From Pseudomonas fluorescens (GTDB taxonomy: Bacteria > Pseudomonadota > Gammaproteobacteria > Pseudomonadales > Pseudomonadaceae): 64,000 nt of DNA. The position numbers and the translations under genes were made by a program. Positions within the stretch are counted from its first letter, which is position 1. Every line of letters starts with the position of its first letter. Where the stretch lies: positions 1-64,000 of the forward strand of contig NZ_JSAK01000014.1 in the NCBI RefSeq assembly GCF_000802965.1. Direction: 5' to 3'. Under the pieces are notes generated by a model, which searched no databases, was not told the origin of the DNA, and worked only from the letters and a program-made list of their open reading frames with translations. Shown here piece by piece: positions 48,723 through 51,496 of this stretch.

Positions 48723-49876
48723 TCGAACTTCAAAACCTCAGCAAGACCTTCCAAAGCAACGGCAAAGATGTGAAAGCCGTGGACTCGGTGAGCCTGACCG
48801 TCAATGAAGGCGAAATCTGCGTGTTCCTCGGGCCATCGGGTTGCGGCAAAAGCACCACGCTGAAAATGATCAACCGCCTGATCAAGCCGACCTCGGGCAA
48901 GATCCTGATCAACGGCGAAGACACCACCGGCCTCGACGAAGTGACCCTGCGGCGCAACATCGGTTATGTGATCCAGCAGATCGGCCTGTTCCCGAACATG
49001 ACCATCGAGGAAAACATCACCGTGGTCCCGCGCCTGCTGGGCTGGGACAAACAGAAATGCCACGACCGCGCCCGCGAGTTGATGAGCATGATCAAGCTTG
49101 AGCCCAAGCAGTACCTGCATCGCTATCCGCGGGAATTGTCCGGTGGCCAGCAGCAACGGATCGGCGTGATTCGGGCGCTGGCAGCGGATGCACCGCTGCT
49201 GTTGATGGACGAACCGTTCGGCGCGGTCGACCCGATCAACCGCGAGATGATCCAGAACGAGTTTTTCGAGATGCAGCGGGCGCTGAACAAGACCGTGATC
49301 ATGGTCAGCCACGACATCGACGAAGCCATCAAGCTGGGCGACAAGATCGCGATCTTCCGCGCCGGCAAGCTGCTGCAGATCGACCATCCAGACACCTTGC
49401 TCGCGCATCCGGCGGACGACTTTGTCAGTAACTTCGTCGGCCAGGACAGCACGTTGAAACGCCTGTTGCTGGTGAAGGCCGAAGACGCAGCGGACAACGC
49501 GCCGTCCGTCAGTCCGGAAACCCCGGTAGCCGATGCTTTGGAATTGATGGATGAGCACGACCGCCGCTACGTGGTGGTGACCTGCACCGAGAACAAGGCG
49601 CTGGGCTACGTGCGCCGCCGCGACCTGCACCGTCAGACCGGCACTTGCGGGCAATACCTGCGCGAGTTCAATGCCACGGCGGCCTACGACGAGCATTTGC
49701 GCATCCTGTTGTCGCGGATGTACGAGTTCAATCGCTCGTGGTTGCCGGTGATGGATGCGGAGCGGGTGTTCCTTGGGGAAGTGACCCAGGAATCGATTGC
49801 TGAGTATTTGAGCTCGGGCAAGTCCCGTGGCGGCAAGACCAGCATCGTTTCCCCAGCTGAGACTGCCATCGCCTGA
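48719..49876 (+). CDS. Osmoprotectant ABC transporter ATPase with CBS domain
   Basis: A 385-residue OpuCA/ProV-like ATPase. Walker A GPSGCGKSTTLKMI, signature LSGGQQQRIGVIRAL, Walker B LLLMDEPFGAVDPINR. A C-terminal extension (about residues 260-375) resembles paired CBS domains, which in OpuA-type transporters sense ionic strength. Coupled to the second permease gene by a 4-nt overlap. The longer frame to 48680 is rejected. Confidence 0.93.
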   Translation: MIELQNLSKTFQSNGKDVKAVDSVSLTVNEGEICVFLGPSGCGKSTTLKMINRLIKPTSGKILINGEDTTGLDEVTLRRNIGYVIQQIGLFPNMTIEENITVVPRLLGWDKQKCHDRARELMSMIKLEPKQYLHRYPRELSGGQQQRIGVIRALAADAPLLLMDEPFGAVDPINREMIQNEFFEMQRALNKTVIMVSHDIDEAIKLGDKIAIFRAGKLLQIDHPDTLLAHPADDFVSNFVGQDSTLKRLLLVKAEDAADNAPSVSPETPVADALELMDEHDRRYVVVTCTENKALGYVRRRDLHRQTGTCGQYLREFNATAAYDEHLRILLSRMYEFNRSWLPVMDAERVFLGEVTQESIAEYLSSGKSRGGKTSIVSPAETAIA

Positions 49877-49884
49877 CCTGACCC

Positions 49885-49978
49885 TGTGGCGAGGGAGCTT
49901 GCTCCCGCTCGGTTGCGCAGCAGCCGCAAATTTGGGGCCGCTGCGCGGCCCAGCGGGAGCAAGCTCCCTCGCCACAAA
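49885..49978. repeat. REP/REPIN, family B
   Basis: Arms TGTGGCGAGGGAGCTTGCTC and its complement, 8 bp after the osmoprotectant ATPase stop. Confidence 0.85.
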
Positions 49979-50143
49979 GGCAATACAAATCCCGCCAAAA
50001 CTCTCCATCCGGGGAACATCACACCGTCACACAGGTCGGTTACATCAGTAGCTGTCAGGGACCACACGACGGAAGCGTGCAAAAACGCGACATTTTTTGT
50101 TGATCTCAAGCCCCTCACGCCCTAAAGTTCGCGCCGAACGTCC

Positions 50144-50254
50144 ATGCTGGAAACGATCCATCCGGCTCAAGTACTGACGACGAGACAGCAAGGCCAAGGG
50201 AAAGCTGCACTTCCCATGGCCTTTTTGCTTTCGGCGACATGCCTTGGGAAGTAG
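50144..50254 (+). promoter_or_regulatory. speC leader: 36-codon ORF with competing stem-loops
   Basis: A 36-codon ORF (starting MLETIHPAQV, ending ATCLGK) precedes speC. It has no strong ribosome site. Three segments inside it can pair in two ways: segment 1 (50191-50202, AGGCCAAGGGAA) with segment 2 (50211-50222), forming the terminator hairpin; or segment 2 (CTTCCCATGGC, 50210-50220) with segment 3 (GCCTTGGGAAG, 50241-50251), 10 of 11 paired. The ORF stop follows segment 3 directly. This looks like an attenuator or a small RNA. Function is inferred. Confidence 0.45.
50190..50226 (+). terminator. Intrinsic terminator-like hairpin in the speC leader
   Basis: A 12-position stem with one A-A mismatch (AGGCCAAGGGAA / TTCCCATGGCCT), loop AGCTGCAC and a TTTTT tract. 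It lies about 105 bp before speC and about 315 bp after the osmoprotectant operon, so it could end upstream read-through, end a small RNA, or attenuate speC. Confidence 0.7.
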
Positions 50255-50332
50255 GCGAACCAAAGTGGGGATACGGAGGACGTTCATTTGCACCCATTGA
50301 TTATTAACGTTTGCCAGTAGGAGCTCCCAGGT

Positions 50333-51496
50333 ATGTCGATCCAGGTCGAAGACTATTTCGCGCGTGAAACCTTCCAGAAAATGAAGGCGTTCGCCGACAA
50401 GCAAGAAACCCCGTTCGTGGTGATCGACACCGCGATGATCAGCCAGGCCTATGACGACCTGCGCGCCGGTTTCGAATTCGCCAAGGTCTACTACGCGGTC
50501 AAGGCCAACCCGGCCGTGGAAATTATCGACCTGCTCAAAGAGAAAGGCTCGAGCTTCGACATCGCCTCGATCTACGAGCTGGACAAAGTGCTGGGCCGCG
50601 GCGTCAGCGCCGACCGGATCAGCTACGGCAACACCATCAAGAAATCCAAGGACATCCGCTACTTCTACGAGAAGGGCGTGCGCCTGTATGCCACCGACTC
50701 CGAAGCCGACCTGCGCAACATCGCCAAGGCTGCGCCGGGCGCGAAAGTCTACGTACGCATCCTGACCGAAGGCTCGACCACCGCTGACTGGCCGTTGTCG
50801 CGCAAATTCGGCTGCCAGACCGACATGGCCATGGACCTGCTGATCCTCGCTCGCGACCTGGGCCTGGTGCCGTACGGCATCTCGTTCCACGTGGGTTCGC
50901 AACAGCGCGACATCAGCGTCTGGGACGCGGCGATCGCCAAGGTCAAAGTGATTTTCGAGCGTCTGAAAGAAGAAGACGGCATCGAGCTGAAACTGATCAA
51001 CATGGGCGGTGGCTTCCCGGCCAACTACATCACCCGTACCAACAGCCTGGAAACCTACGCTGAAGAAATCATCCGTTTCCTCAAGGAAGACTTCGGTGAC
51101 GACTTGCCGGAAATCATCCTGGAGCCAGGCCGTTCGTTGATCGCCAACGCCGGCATCCTGGTCAGTGAAGTGGTGCTGGTCGCGCGTAAATCCCGTACCG
51201 CCGTTGAGCGTTGGGTGTACACGGATGTGGGCAAGTTCTCCGGCCTGATCGAAACCATGGACGAAGCCATCAAGTTCCCGATCTGGACCGAAAAGAAAGG
51301 CGAGATGGAAGAAGTCGTGATCGCCGGCCCAACCTGCGACAGCGCCGACATCATGTACGAAAACTACAAGTACGGCCTGCCACTGAACCTGGCCATCGGT
51401 GATCGCCTGTACTGGCTGTCGACCGGTGCGTACACCACCAGCTACAGCGCGGTTGAGTTCAATGGCTTCCCGCCGCTGAAGTCGTTCTACGTGTAA
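50333..51496 (+). CDS. speC: Ornithine decarboxylase (fold-III PLP enzyme)
   Basis: A 387-residue alanine-racemase-fold decarboxylase producing putrescine from ornithine. The PLP lysine is in VYYAVKANPA (near residue 60); the glycine-rich loop is MGGGFPANY, and EPGRSLIANAG binds phosphate. The catalytic cysteine region AGPTCDSADIMYE and the C-terminal YTTSYSAVEFNGFP are present. Length and motifs match Pseudomonas SpeC, which may also accept lysine. AGGAG precedes the ATG by about 10 nt. It has a long structured leader and its own terminator. Confidence 0.95.
   Translation: MSIQVEDYFARETFQKMKAFADKQETPFVVIDTAMISQAYDDLRAGFEFAKVYYAVKANPAVEIIDLLKEKGSSFDIASIYELDKVLGRGVSADRISYGNTIKKSKDIRYFYEKGVRLYATDSEADLRNIAKAAPGAKVYVRILTEGSTTADWPLSRKFGCQTDMAMDLLILARDLGLVPYGISFHVGSQQRDISVWDAAIAKVKVIFERLKEEDGIELKLINMGGGFPANYITRTNSLETYAEEIIRFLKEDFGDDLPEIILEPGRSLIANAGILVSEVVLVARKSRTAVERWVYTDVGKFSGLIETMDEAIKFPIWTEKKGEMEEVVIAGPTCDSADIMYENYKYGLPLNLAIGDRLYWLSTGAYTTSYSAVEFNGFPPLKSFYV

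Follow-up and report, generated by a model that had tools for sequence, protein, structure and literature searches.

We identified a leader RNA of about 150 nt (50136–50285, forward strand) upstream of a Pseudomonas fluorescens gene that we take to be speC, which encodes ornithine decarboxylase. The RNA is closed by a helix between its two ends, P1, and two near-invariant blocks flank its one variable arm. It is larger than, and different from, the short open reading frame (ORF) and terminator that a sequence-only reading of the same DNA had proposed as a polyamine- or ornithine-responsive attenuator. The explanation that we favor on balance is that this element is a cis-regulatory speC leader with a specific partner, and that it acts as a translation switch in the genus of the source strain. 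It would then be an undescribed regulatory leader of an ornithine decarboxylase gene, perhaps a riboswitch.

The leader is more conserved than the coding sequence behind it, yet it has no match in Rfam 15, and this in a much-studied genus. It provides a tangible starting point for understanding how pseudomonads regulate putrescine synthesis, a process that affects biofilm, motility, and plant infection in P. syringae (PMC12152252).

The speC locus and its predicted promoter

The window analyzed here is the whole stretch of 64,000 nt from P. fluorescens assembly GCF_000802965.1, contig NZ_JSAK01000014.1, read on the forward strand, and all features described below lie on the plus strand. The ORF at 50333–51496 (387 amino acids) is presumably speC, ornithine decarboxylase, a gene name that we adopt from the sequence-only reading, and its product is presumably of the alanine-racemase-fold type. 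Orthologs of this protein were found in 111 of 119 Pseudomonadaceae genomes (E 1e-30). The Shine-Dalgarno sequence AGGAG sits at 50319–50323, and its GGAG served as the anchor for the comparison of leader tails.

A sigma-70-like promoter is predicted at 50100–50128, with TTGATC at 50100–50105 and TAAAGT at 50123–50128 separated by 17 nt. This pattern recurs across 301 unique leaders when the best hexamer match within a small range is taken: the spacer is 17 nt in 295, the –10 element TAAAGT is present in 264, and the –35 element TTGATC is present in 235. The gap between the –10 element and P1 is 7–8 nt in 289 of the same 301 leaders. The predicted transcription start in the window (about 50135–50136) coincides with the first base of P1. 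Because the conserved promoter places the start at P1, the RNA probably begins with this helix and is probably part of the speC mRNA.

Two side observations concern this region. The segment between the –10 element and the start (50123–50136) includes a GC-rich stretch, TCGCGCC, of a kind seen at stringently controlled promoters. Further upstream, a long imperfect palindrome (49880–49980) that resembles a repeat hairpin separates the speC promoter from a gene for an ABC transporter ATPase. Rfam miRNA-like matches at 49878–49983 are spurious products of this hairpin and lie outside the leader.

Architecture of the leader RNA

The ends of the leader, GAACGUCC (50136–50143) and GGACGUUC (50278–50285), pair to form P1, and the 5′ strand (GAACGTCC) and 3′ strand (GGACGTTC) of this helix covary in our alignments. 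Its innermost pair, 50143:50278, forms in only 27 of 93 sequences. Invariant core block 1 (ATGCTGGAAACGATCCATCCGGCTCAAGTACTGACGACGAGA, 50144–50185) is delimited by identity across relatives and holds the first codons of the ORF described by the sequence-only reading. Inside it, GCTGG (50146–50150) pairs with CCGGC (50162–50166) around the loop AAACGATCCAT to form helix P2, which is nearly invariant and thus falls outside the covariation test.

The variable arm, P3/P4 (50175–50239), keeps its pairing while its letters differ. It is built from a UG/CA base (50175–50176/50238–50239), a CG/CG step (50178–50179/50235–50236), a CGAGA/UUUCG helix (50181–50185/50229–50233), and a tip hairpin (50188–50228) with a U-run at 50222–50226. 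This tip hairpin is the terminator of the sequence-only reading.

Invariant core block 2 (TCGGCGACATGCCTTGGGAAGTAGGCGAACCAAAGTGGGGA, 50231–50271), likewise recognized by identity across relatives, contains a possible hairpin, P5, in which GCCT (50241–50244) pairs with AGGC (50253–50256). P5 is favored by folding and competes with an alternative pairing of UCAAG (50167–50171) with CUUGG (50243–50247), so that GCCUUGGG has two competing pairings, both nearly invariant. The UCAAG/CUUGG helix has 100% of its cells paired in the alignment; it is not seen in the leaders of the other family, f26, that we describe at the end. Downstream of P1, just 5′ of the ribosome site, the window carries the motif GTTTGCC (50309–50315). 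We call this motif anti-core, as it is complementary to the invariant GGCGAAC at 50254–50260.

Conservation, covariation, and folding

Leaders were gathered by DNA and protein searches of whole genomes. A query spanning 50100–50500, which includes 168 nt of speC, matched 199 of 199 genomes of the genus, and SpeC was then located in 50 genomes of the genus whose DNA matches had been weaker or split, as well as across a set of 119 genomes from the family. Three alignments (A1, A2, and A3) contain 62, 64, and 93 selected, non-identical elements without long inserts. A1 and A2 were drawn from 153 unique elements, from which elements longer than 190 nt and leader L047, with its degenerate core, were excluded.

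The two core blocks are conserved to a degree that the neighboring sequence is not. In nine divergent relatives, block 1 is 88–100% and block 2 is 95–100% identical to the window, compared with 15–64% for the stretch from P1 to the start codon and 20–72% for third codon positions in the first 180 nt of speC (ungapped). Of the 131 well-filled columns in the alignment of 93 elements, 66 show no change at all. Core letters conserved to this extreme suggest a specific binding partner for the fold.

P1 covaries. In the 93-sequence alignment fitted to the model, four of its pairs have changed on both sides, giving 31 double-change cells against 3.9 after shuffling, a value that none of 500 shuffles reached. 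An unfitted alignment gave the same outcome at a lower level (three pairs, with 11 double-change cells against 2.1, again reached by 0 of 500 shuffles). Pair 50138:50283 changes from A-U to C-G and G-C, pair 50140:50281 from G-C to A-U, and pair 50141:50280 occurs as U-A, U-G, or C-G. Read from the opposite strand, the U-G form that one P1 pair takes in 31 sequences would be A-C, which identifies the plus strand as the RNA.

Other measures in the fitted alignment discriminate less. The count of pairs changed on both sides (4 against 2.1) was reached by 23 of 500 shuffles, and the count of further pair types (16 against 15.2) by 173 of 500. A control in which the pairing was slid by –1 yielded 19 double-change cells in a single pair, which indicates that relatedness among the sequences inflates covariation counts. 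Paired cells make up 94.4% of the whole structure in the fitted alignment of 93 sequences, and the helices outside P1 and the arm are nearly invariant, so that they carry no covariation information.

Folding energies of single sequences add little to this picture. The element in the window folds better than shuffled sequences (z –3.50), owing to its arm, and eight relatives do not (z –0.9 to +1.7); the whole of 50090–50332 also folds no better than shuffles (z –0.35). The nested minimum for the window UTR (–74.6 kcal/mol) lacks P1, and enforcing P1 raises the energy to –63.0 kcal/mol, a cost of 11.6 kcal/mol. Plain energy rules thus do not favor P1 in the window UTR. Conservation, covariation, and the promoter pattern nonetheless leave us with little doubt that the speC leader is a structured RNA that belongs to the speC transcript.

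Linkage of the RNA to speC

A covariance model of the leader, R1, finds one copy in the source genome and matches 112 of 119 Pseudomonadaceae genomes from 18 of 19 genera, with one match in each. The linkage to speC is strict. In 110 of the 111 genomes with SpeC, the RNA lies on the same contig and strand as the gene, 45–304 nt upstream of it. In the remaining genome (G234), a contig end falls between the two. The seven genomes without the RNA likewise lack a SpeC match at E 1e-30, and one genome that is 76% complete (G309) has the RNA while SpeC was not found.

In this form, the RNA was not found in other families among the order and class genome sets. The matches of R1 in 293 genomes of the order were confined to 13 Pseudomonadaceae genomes and one weak match (G434, E 0.096), which we rejected as its sequence reads as coding. 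Its matches in 369 genomes of the class came from only two genomes, both Pseudomonadaceae. Searches of more than 40 genomes used stricter filters, with which weak matches are lost.

An exact-pattern scan of named genomes with a 17-mer matched at least 119 stretches. Among the matches listed are Pseudomonas, Stutzerimonas, Halopseudomonas, Azomonas, and Serpens, as well as metagenome-assembled genomes named Pseudomonadaceae or Gammaproteobacteria. The matches listed also include four further stretches without SpeC, in which the match lies near the stretch end, and one Oscillospiraceae metagenome-assembled genome with no SpeC in the stretch, which we take as chance or contamination.

The upstream ORF and the variable arm

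The sequence-only reading looked for regulation at the right place, and all of its coordinates are correct. The ORF at 50144–50254 runs from ATG to TAG over 36 codons ahead of speC. Within it, segment 1 (AGGCCAAGGGAA, 50191–50202) and segment 2 (TTCCCATGGCCT, 50211–50222) form the proposed terminator, followed by T-runs at 50222–50226 and 50229–50231. Segment 3 (GCCTTGGGAAG, 50241–50251) has the TAG stop immediately 3′ of it, and it pairs with CTTCCCATGGC at 10 of 11 positions. In the window genome, the terminator-like hairpin (50185–50230; z –3.16) and the alternative stem (50205–50258; z –3.17) are each matched by 2 of 200 shuffles; a simple terminator scan does not list the hairpin.

These features do not hold up across relatives as parts of a shared mechanism. 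Of 274 unique elements, 18 carry AGG or AAG in place of the ATG. The commonest length, 36 amino acids, is shared by only 27 of the 256 elements with an ATG, the others ranging from 10 amino acids to frames still open at the end of the sequence read. In the core, first, second, and third codon positions alike show almost no variation. We thus rejected the ORF as a conserved feature, as its start and length vary and no conserved translated upstream ORF of the arrest-peptide kind is seen. The earlier caution that the ORF lacks a strong ribosome site was borne out, as the predicted transcription start at about 50135 precedes its ATG by only about 9 nt.

The T-run has a restricted distribution. The 301 unique leaders yielded 282 arms, and the 10 arms longer than 70 nt were excluded from the counts. 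Among the other 272, the arm ends in TTTTTGCTTT in 173 and does not in 99. Every sampled genome of genera g6 (11), g10 (8), and g17 (4) has the T-run, as does one of two genomes of g16. In the window's genus (g1), 110 of the 163 unique leaders have it; it is absent from all sampled genomes of the other 13 of the 18 genera with the RNA. Where it occurs, the hairpin is stable, averaging –16.3 kcal/mol against –7.2 kcal/mol for shuffled sequences, and its stem changes are compensated (GGCC/GGCC in 105 and GGTC/GACC in 41 of the 173 arms). At the corresponding place, the Halopseudomonas arm reads CTTATTGC.

Segment 3 lies inside invariant block 2, and segment 2 lies inside the variable arm. Homologous pairing of the two segments over 138 unique T-run arms reaches 10 of 11 positions in 16 arms, 8–9 in 58, 6–7 in 18, and 2–5 in 46. 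When pairing of at least 10 of 11 positions is allowed anywhere in the arm, it is found in 29 of 173 T-run arms compared with 2.5% of shuffles. For arms without a T-run, the corresponding figures are 1 of 99 and 1.9%. The alternative stem thus exceeds chance in T-run arms, but one in three of these arms forms it poorly, and in arms without a T-run it is no commoner than chance. With this partial stem, and with no T-run in 13 of 18 genera, we rejected a conserved terminator/anti-terminator switch. Missing covariation and ORF conservation had been named in advance as the outcome that would count against the attenuator. That outcome applies to the ORF and, outside part of the T-run arms, to the alternative stem; the leader taken as an RNA, with its covarying P1, escapes it. 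What survives of the attenuator claim is that a regulatory leader of the ornithine decarboxylase gene is probable.

The arm as a whole retains its pairing despite changes in its letters. Of 274 unique elements, 264 could be read by eye for the base of the arm and 10 could not; 260 of those read have UG/CA or a replacement by standard pairs, and the other four have CG/UG. In a P. plecoglossicida-like lineage, the whole arm is cleanly deleted and UCAAGUACUGA is left; this natural arm-less form of about 80 nt is a ready minimal version of the RNA.

Insertions were observed only in the variable arm or in the tail. Repeat-like insertions with an intact core occur in the arm of L135, L140, L141, L039, L053, L175, and L184. 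Similar insertions, also with an intact core, occur between P1 and the speC ribosome site in L037, L042, L043, L045, L046, L083, and L144. Leader L047 (genome G144) retains P1 and most of block 1, with a degenerate arm and part of block 2 degenerate as well.

A possible translation switch in Pseudomonas

Most of the tail between P1 and speC varies strongly, and one motif stands out. In the consensus of 180 tails, UUUGCC sits 4 nt 5′ of GGAG. Among 237 unique 42-nt tails, which are mutually related sequences, 78% form at least six contiguous pairs with the core GGCGAAC (20% after shuffling) and 53% form seven (4% after shuffling). No such excess was seen in these tails for three other core segments. 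Tails of up to 313 nt occur and fit a local translation switch less well.

Among the 163 unique leaders from the window's genus, 149 carry UUUGCC within their last 42 nt. It occurs in only 23 of 76 genomes from 17 other genera, and these include all 12 genomes of g16, g17, and g18. It is absent from every sampled genome of g5, g6, g7, g8, g11, g13, g14, and g19. As the motif is absent from eight of the 17 other genera, the pairing cannot serve the whole family.

In the window, the pairing of 50254–50260 with 50309–50315 is used in the nested minimum-energy fold of the UTR. It crosses P1, and the two would therefore either coexist as a pseudoknot or exclude each other. The complementarity between GGCGAAC and UUUGCC in the window's genus suggests a translation switch by pseudoknot. 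Anti-core pairing appears to be the best-supported expression platform for Pseudomonas, and we tentatively suggest that control in this genus may operate on translation through the motif.

Two other candidate pairings were tried and rejected. Pairing of core AAAGUGGGG with a downstream pyrimidine tract shows no clear excess (mean score 14.8 against 14.4 shuffled; 7-nt complement in 47% against 55%); part of the tail comparison that gave the mean score was restricted to tails of at most 140 nt. Eight or more contiguous pairs between core CGACAUGC and the start region GCAUGUCG are possible in 68 of the 156 unique combinations examined, compared with about 2% of shuffles, a count made on leaders with ATG at the aligned start. 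This pairing is absent in 30 of the 156, is uncompensated when the core varies, and is impossible in the arm-less lineage, which argues against a shared mechanism.

Comparison with known regulatory RNAs

Rfam 15 contains no model that matches the leader. A search of 49500–51000 at E up to 10 returned only matches to the repeat hairpin and weak chance matches outside the leader, and a search of 14 divergent relatives at E up to 5 returned only three chance matches outside the element. RF00518, the speF model, matched neither the window region nor the 14 relatives at these thresholds, so that membership in the alphaproteobacterial speF family is not supported. The speC leader was not found described in the literature that we searched, which covered neither subscription journals nor supplements, so an earlier mention is possible. 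The main texts of two transcript maps of P. aeruginosa (PMC8297930 and PMC3460626), searched with speC and similar terms, held no relevant passage.

Leaders with analogous roles have been described. The alphaproteobacterial speF RNA is a large structured leader upstream of a COG0019 ornithine decarboxylase gene, with conservation that starts at the putative transcription start (PMC1273637). Our leader resembles it in lying upstream of an ornithine decarboxylase gene and in beginning near the predicted transcription start, but it occurs in a different bacterial class and has no Rfam match; the two are set apart by model search rather than by consensus letters. In that study (PMC1273637), six metabolites of the pathway were assayed and none was bound by the speF RNA, which cautions against presuming a polyamine ligand. 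The odc1 RNA is an alphaproteobacterial cis-regulatory RNA, also upstream of ornithine decarboxylase, for which a pseudoknot and a sequestered ribosome site have been proposed (PMC8632094). It consists of one extended hairpin, has its ribosome site in P1, and combines two UUG starts with an overlapping peptide of 11 amino acids. The speC leader, in contrast, is a multi-branched domain that ends 47 nt before the AUG in the window and has no conserved ORF; across 255 unique tails, no fewer than 41 nt separate P1 from the speC start, and the start codon in the window is AUG. The speF RNA and odc1 are analogues of the speC leader and not demonstrated relatives.

The speF leader of E. coli and Salmonella, which acts through the speFL arrest peptide and Rho, requires translation of an ORF, and the SpeF protein differs in fold from SpeC. 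The speC leader shares with speFL the proposed leader-based control of an ornithine decarboxylase gene but lacks a conserved ORF, so that control of the E. coli speF type, which the sequence-only reading had brought up, is not supported (the Salmonella leader is the subject of PMC6386406). The spermidine riboswitch, a bacterial polyamine-sensing RNA, is a variant of SAM-I (PMC10853860), and unlike this SAM-I-like aptamer, the speC leader has no SAM-I match. In common with riboswitches in general, the leader is a conserved, structured, aptamer-like domain in the 5′ UTR, as given by the predicted promoter, of a metabolic gene.

Interpretation and alternative explanations

In the mechanism that we propose, transcription would start at P1 and the RNA would fold into a P1-closed domain composed of P2, the variable arm P3/P4, and the invariant 3′ strand. 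This leader would control speC in cis, which the conservation and linkage make very probable. The fold would bind either a metabolite of the ornithine/putrescine pathway, as a riboswitch, or a protein. In the window's genus, GGCGAAC would either join the folded domain or pair with (G)UUUGCC 4 nt 5′ of GGAG, crossing P1 as a pseudoknot or replacing P1; the presumed direction of control is that this pairing hinders the ribosome. Other genera would use a different expression platform.

A pathway metabolite could well be the partner, at a likelihood that we place slightly short of even. The spermidine-riboswitch paper of 2023 holds it certain that further polyamine riboswitch classes await discovery (PMC10853860), and the speC leader is a strong candidate for one. 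The complete proposal is more demanding: a new riboswitch class in nearly all SpeC-bearing Pseudomonadaceae, and perhaps in another Pseudomonadales family, that senses an ornithine–putrescine metabolite and sets translation, at least in Pseudomonas, through a pseudoknot between core and ribosome site. We consider it a serious possibility that, taken whole, is somewhat doubtful.

The original proposal, in which a translated 36-codon ORF and a choice between terminator (segments 1–2) and anti-terminator (segments 2–3) attenuate speC transcription in response to polyamines, is now extremely improbable. The letters that it invokes are present, both hairpins beat shuffles in the window genome, T-run hairpins are stable, and the 2:3 stem exceeds its shuffled frequency in T-run arms. 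Against this, neither start nor length of the ORF is kept, the 2:3 stem is weak in one third of the T-run arms and no commoner than chance outside them, the T-run is missing from 13 of 18 genera, and the predicted distance from transcription start to ATG is too short for a ribosome site. A narrower version of termination fares better but is still unlikely. Here, the P4 arm of the T-run lineages would be a genuine intrinsic terminator acquired by an older leader, yielding a 5′ fragment of about 90 nt (a small RNA or attenuated transcript) beside the full mRNA. The GC-rich stem directly before TTTTTGCTTT, its compensated changes, and the regular occurrence of the T-run in g6, g10, g17, and 110 of 163 g1 leaders are consistent with such an addition, but the U-run can also pair inside the arm (GCAA/UUGC), Halopseudomonas keeps an arm with CTTATTGC instead, and block 2 and P1, which require read-through, are conserved in the T-run lineages too.

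Two further alternatives accept the conserved domain but assign it a different role. The leader may be the site of a protein, be it SpeC itself, an RNA-binding protein specific to Pseudomonadaceae, or the ribosome, instead of a small molecule. Near-invariant helix letters before one gene in one family suit a dedicated partner, and the analogous speF RNA bound no metabolite among those tested (PMC1273637), but we have no candidate protein and nothing specific indicates one; we regard a protein site as rather unlikely, though a real contender. An independent gene for a trans-acting small RNA, whose place before speC would be historical, could account for the separate promoter pattern, the closed fold, and the RNA-gene insertions in some genomes. 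This reading is very unlikely: in 110 of 111 genomes the RNA sits immediately before speC and points the same way, RNA and gene are absent together, and no conserved terminator was seen by eye after P1. The cis-regulatory leader with a specific partner thus remains our preferred explanation.

speC leaders beyond Pseudomonadaceae

SpeC-like proteins were found in 72 of 244 genomes of the order; 10 are from Pseudomonadaceae, 49 others have 59–80% identity, and 13 have 31–42% identity. R1, run unfiltered at 20 of these loci, gave no match (best E 0.56). In another family of Pseudomonadales, f26, speC is directly preceded by a different, highly conserved leader RNA about 107 nt long (for example, L417:1346–1461, plus strand), which is found in L417–L421 and L424–L427, with L422–L423 excepted. 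By eye, this leader has a sigma-70-like promoter at its start, a GCGUC/GRCGU closing helix, and a variable hairpin arm. A model built from it, R2, matches 12 of 293 genomes of the order, all of them f26. R2 also gave a match in L054 (362–471, E 2.8e-5) that does not fall at the speC leader of that locus and that we rejected; R2 E-values are thus rough.

The f26 and Pseudomonas leaders have UCAA, AAGUAGG, and ACA-GCC blocks in common, in the same order by eye. Homology between them is not significant by nhmmer or by covariance model. Global alignments are no more than suggestive: 12, 34, and 41 of 3000 shuffles were as good for the 5′ halves, compared with 111 and 784 of 3000 for the 3′ halves. 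The f26 leader is possibly a distant relative of the Pseudomonas leader, and leader control of speC may be old and varied. In a further family, f20, a strong terminator-like hairpin (GGTGCTGCAGC...GCTGTAGCACCTTTTTTT or similar) was seen by eye before speC in leaders L400–L405, and more weakly in L399 and L413; it is a candidate attenuator of another type.
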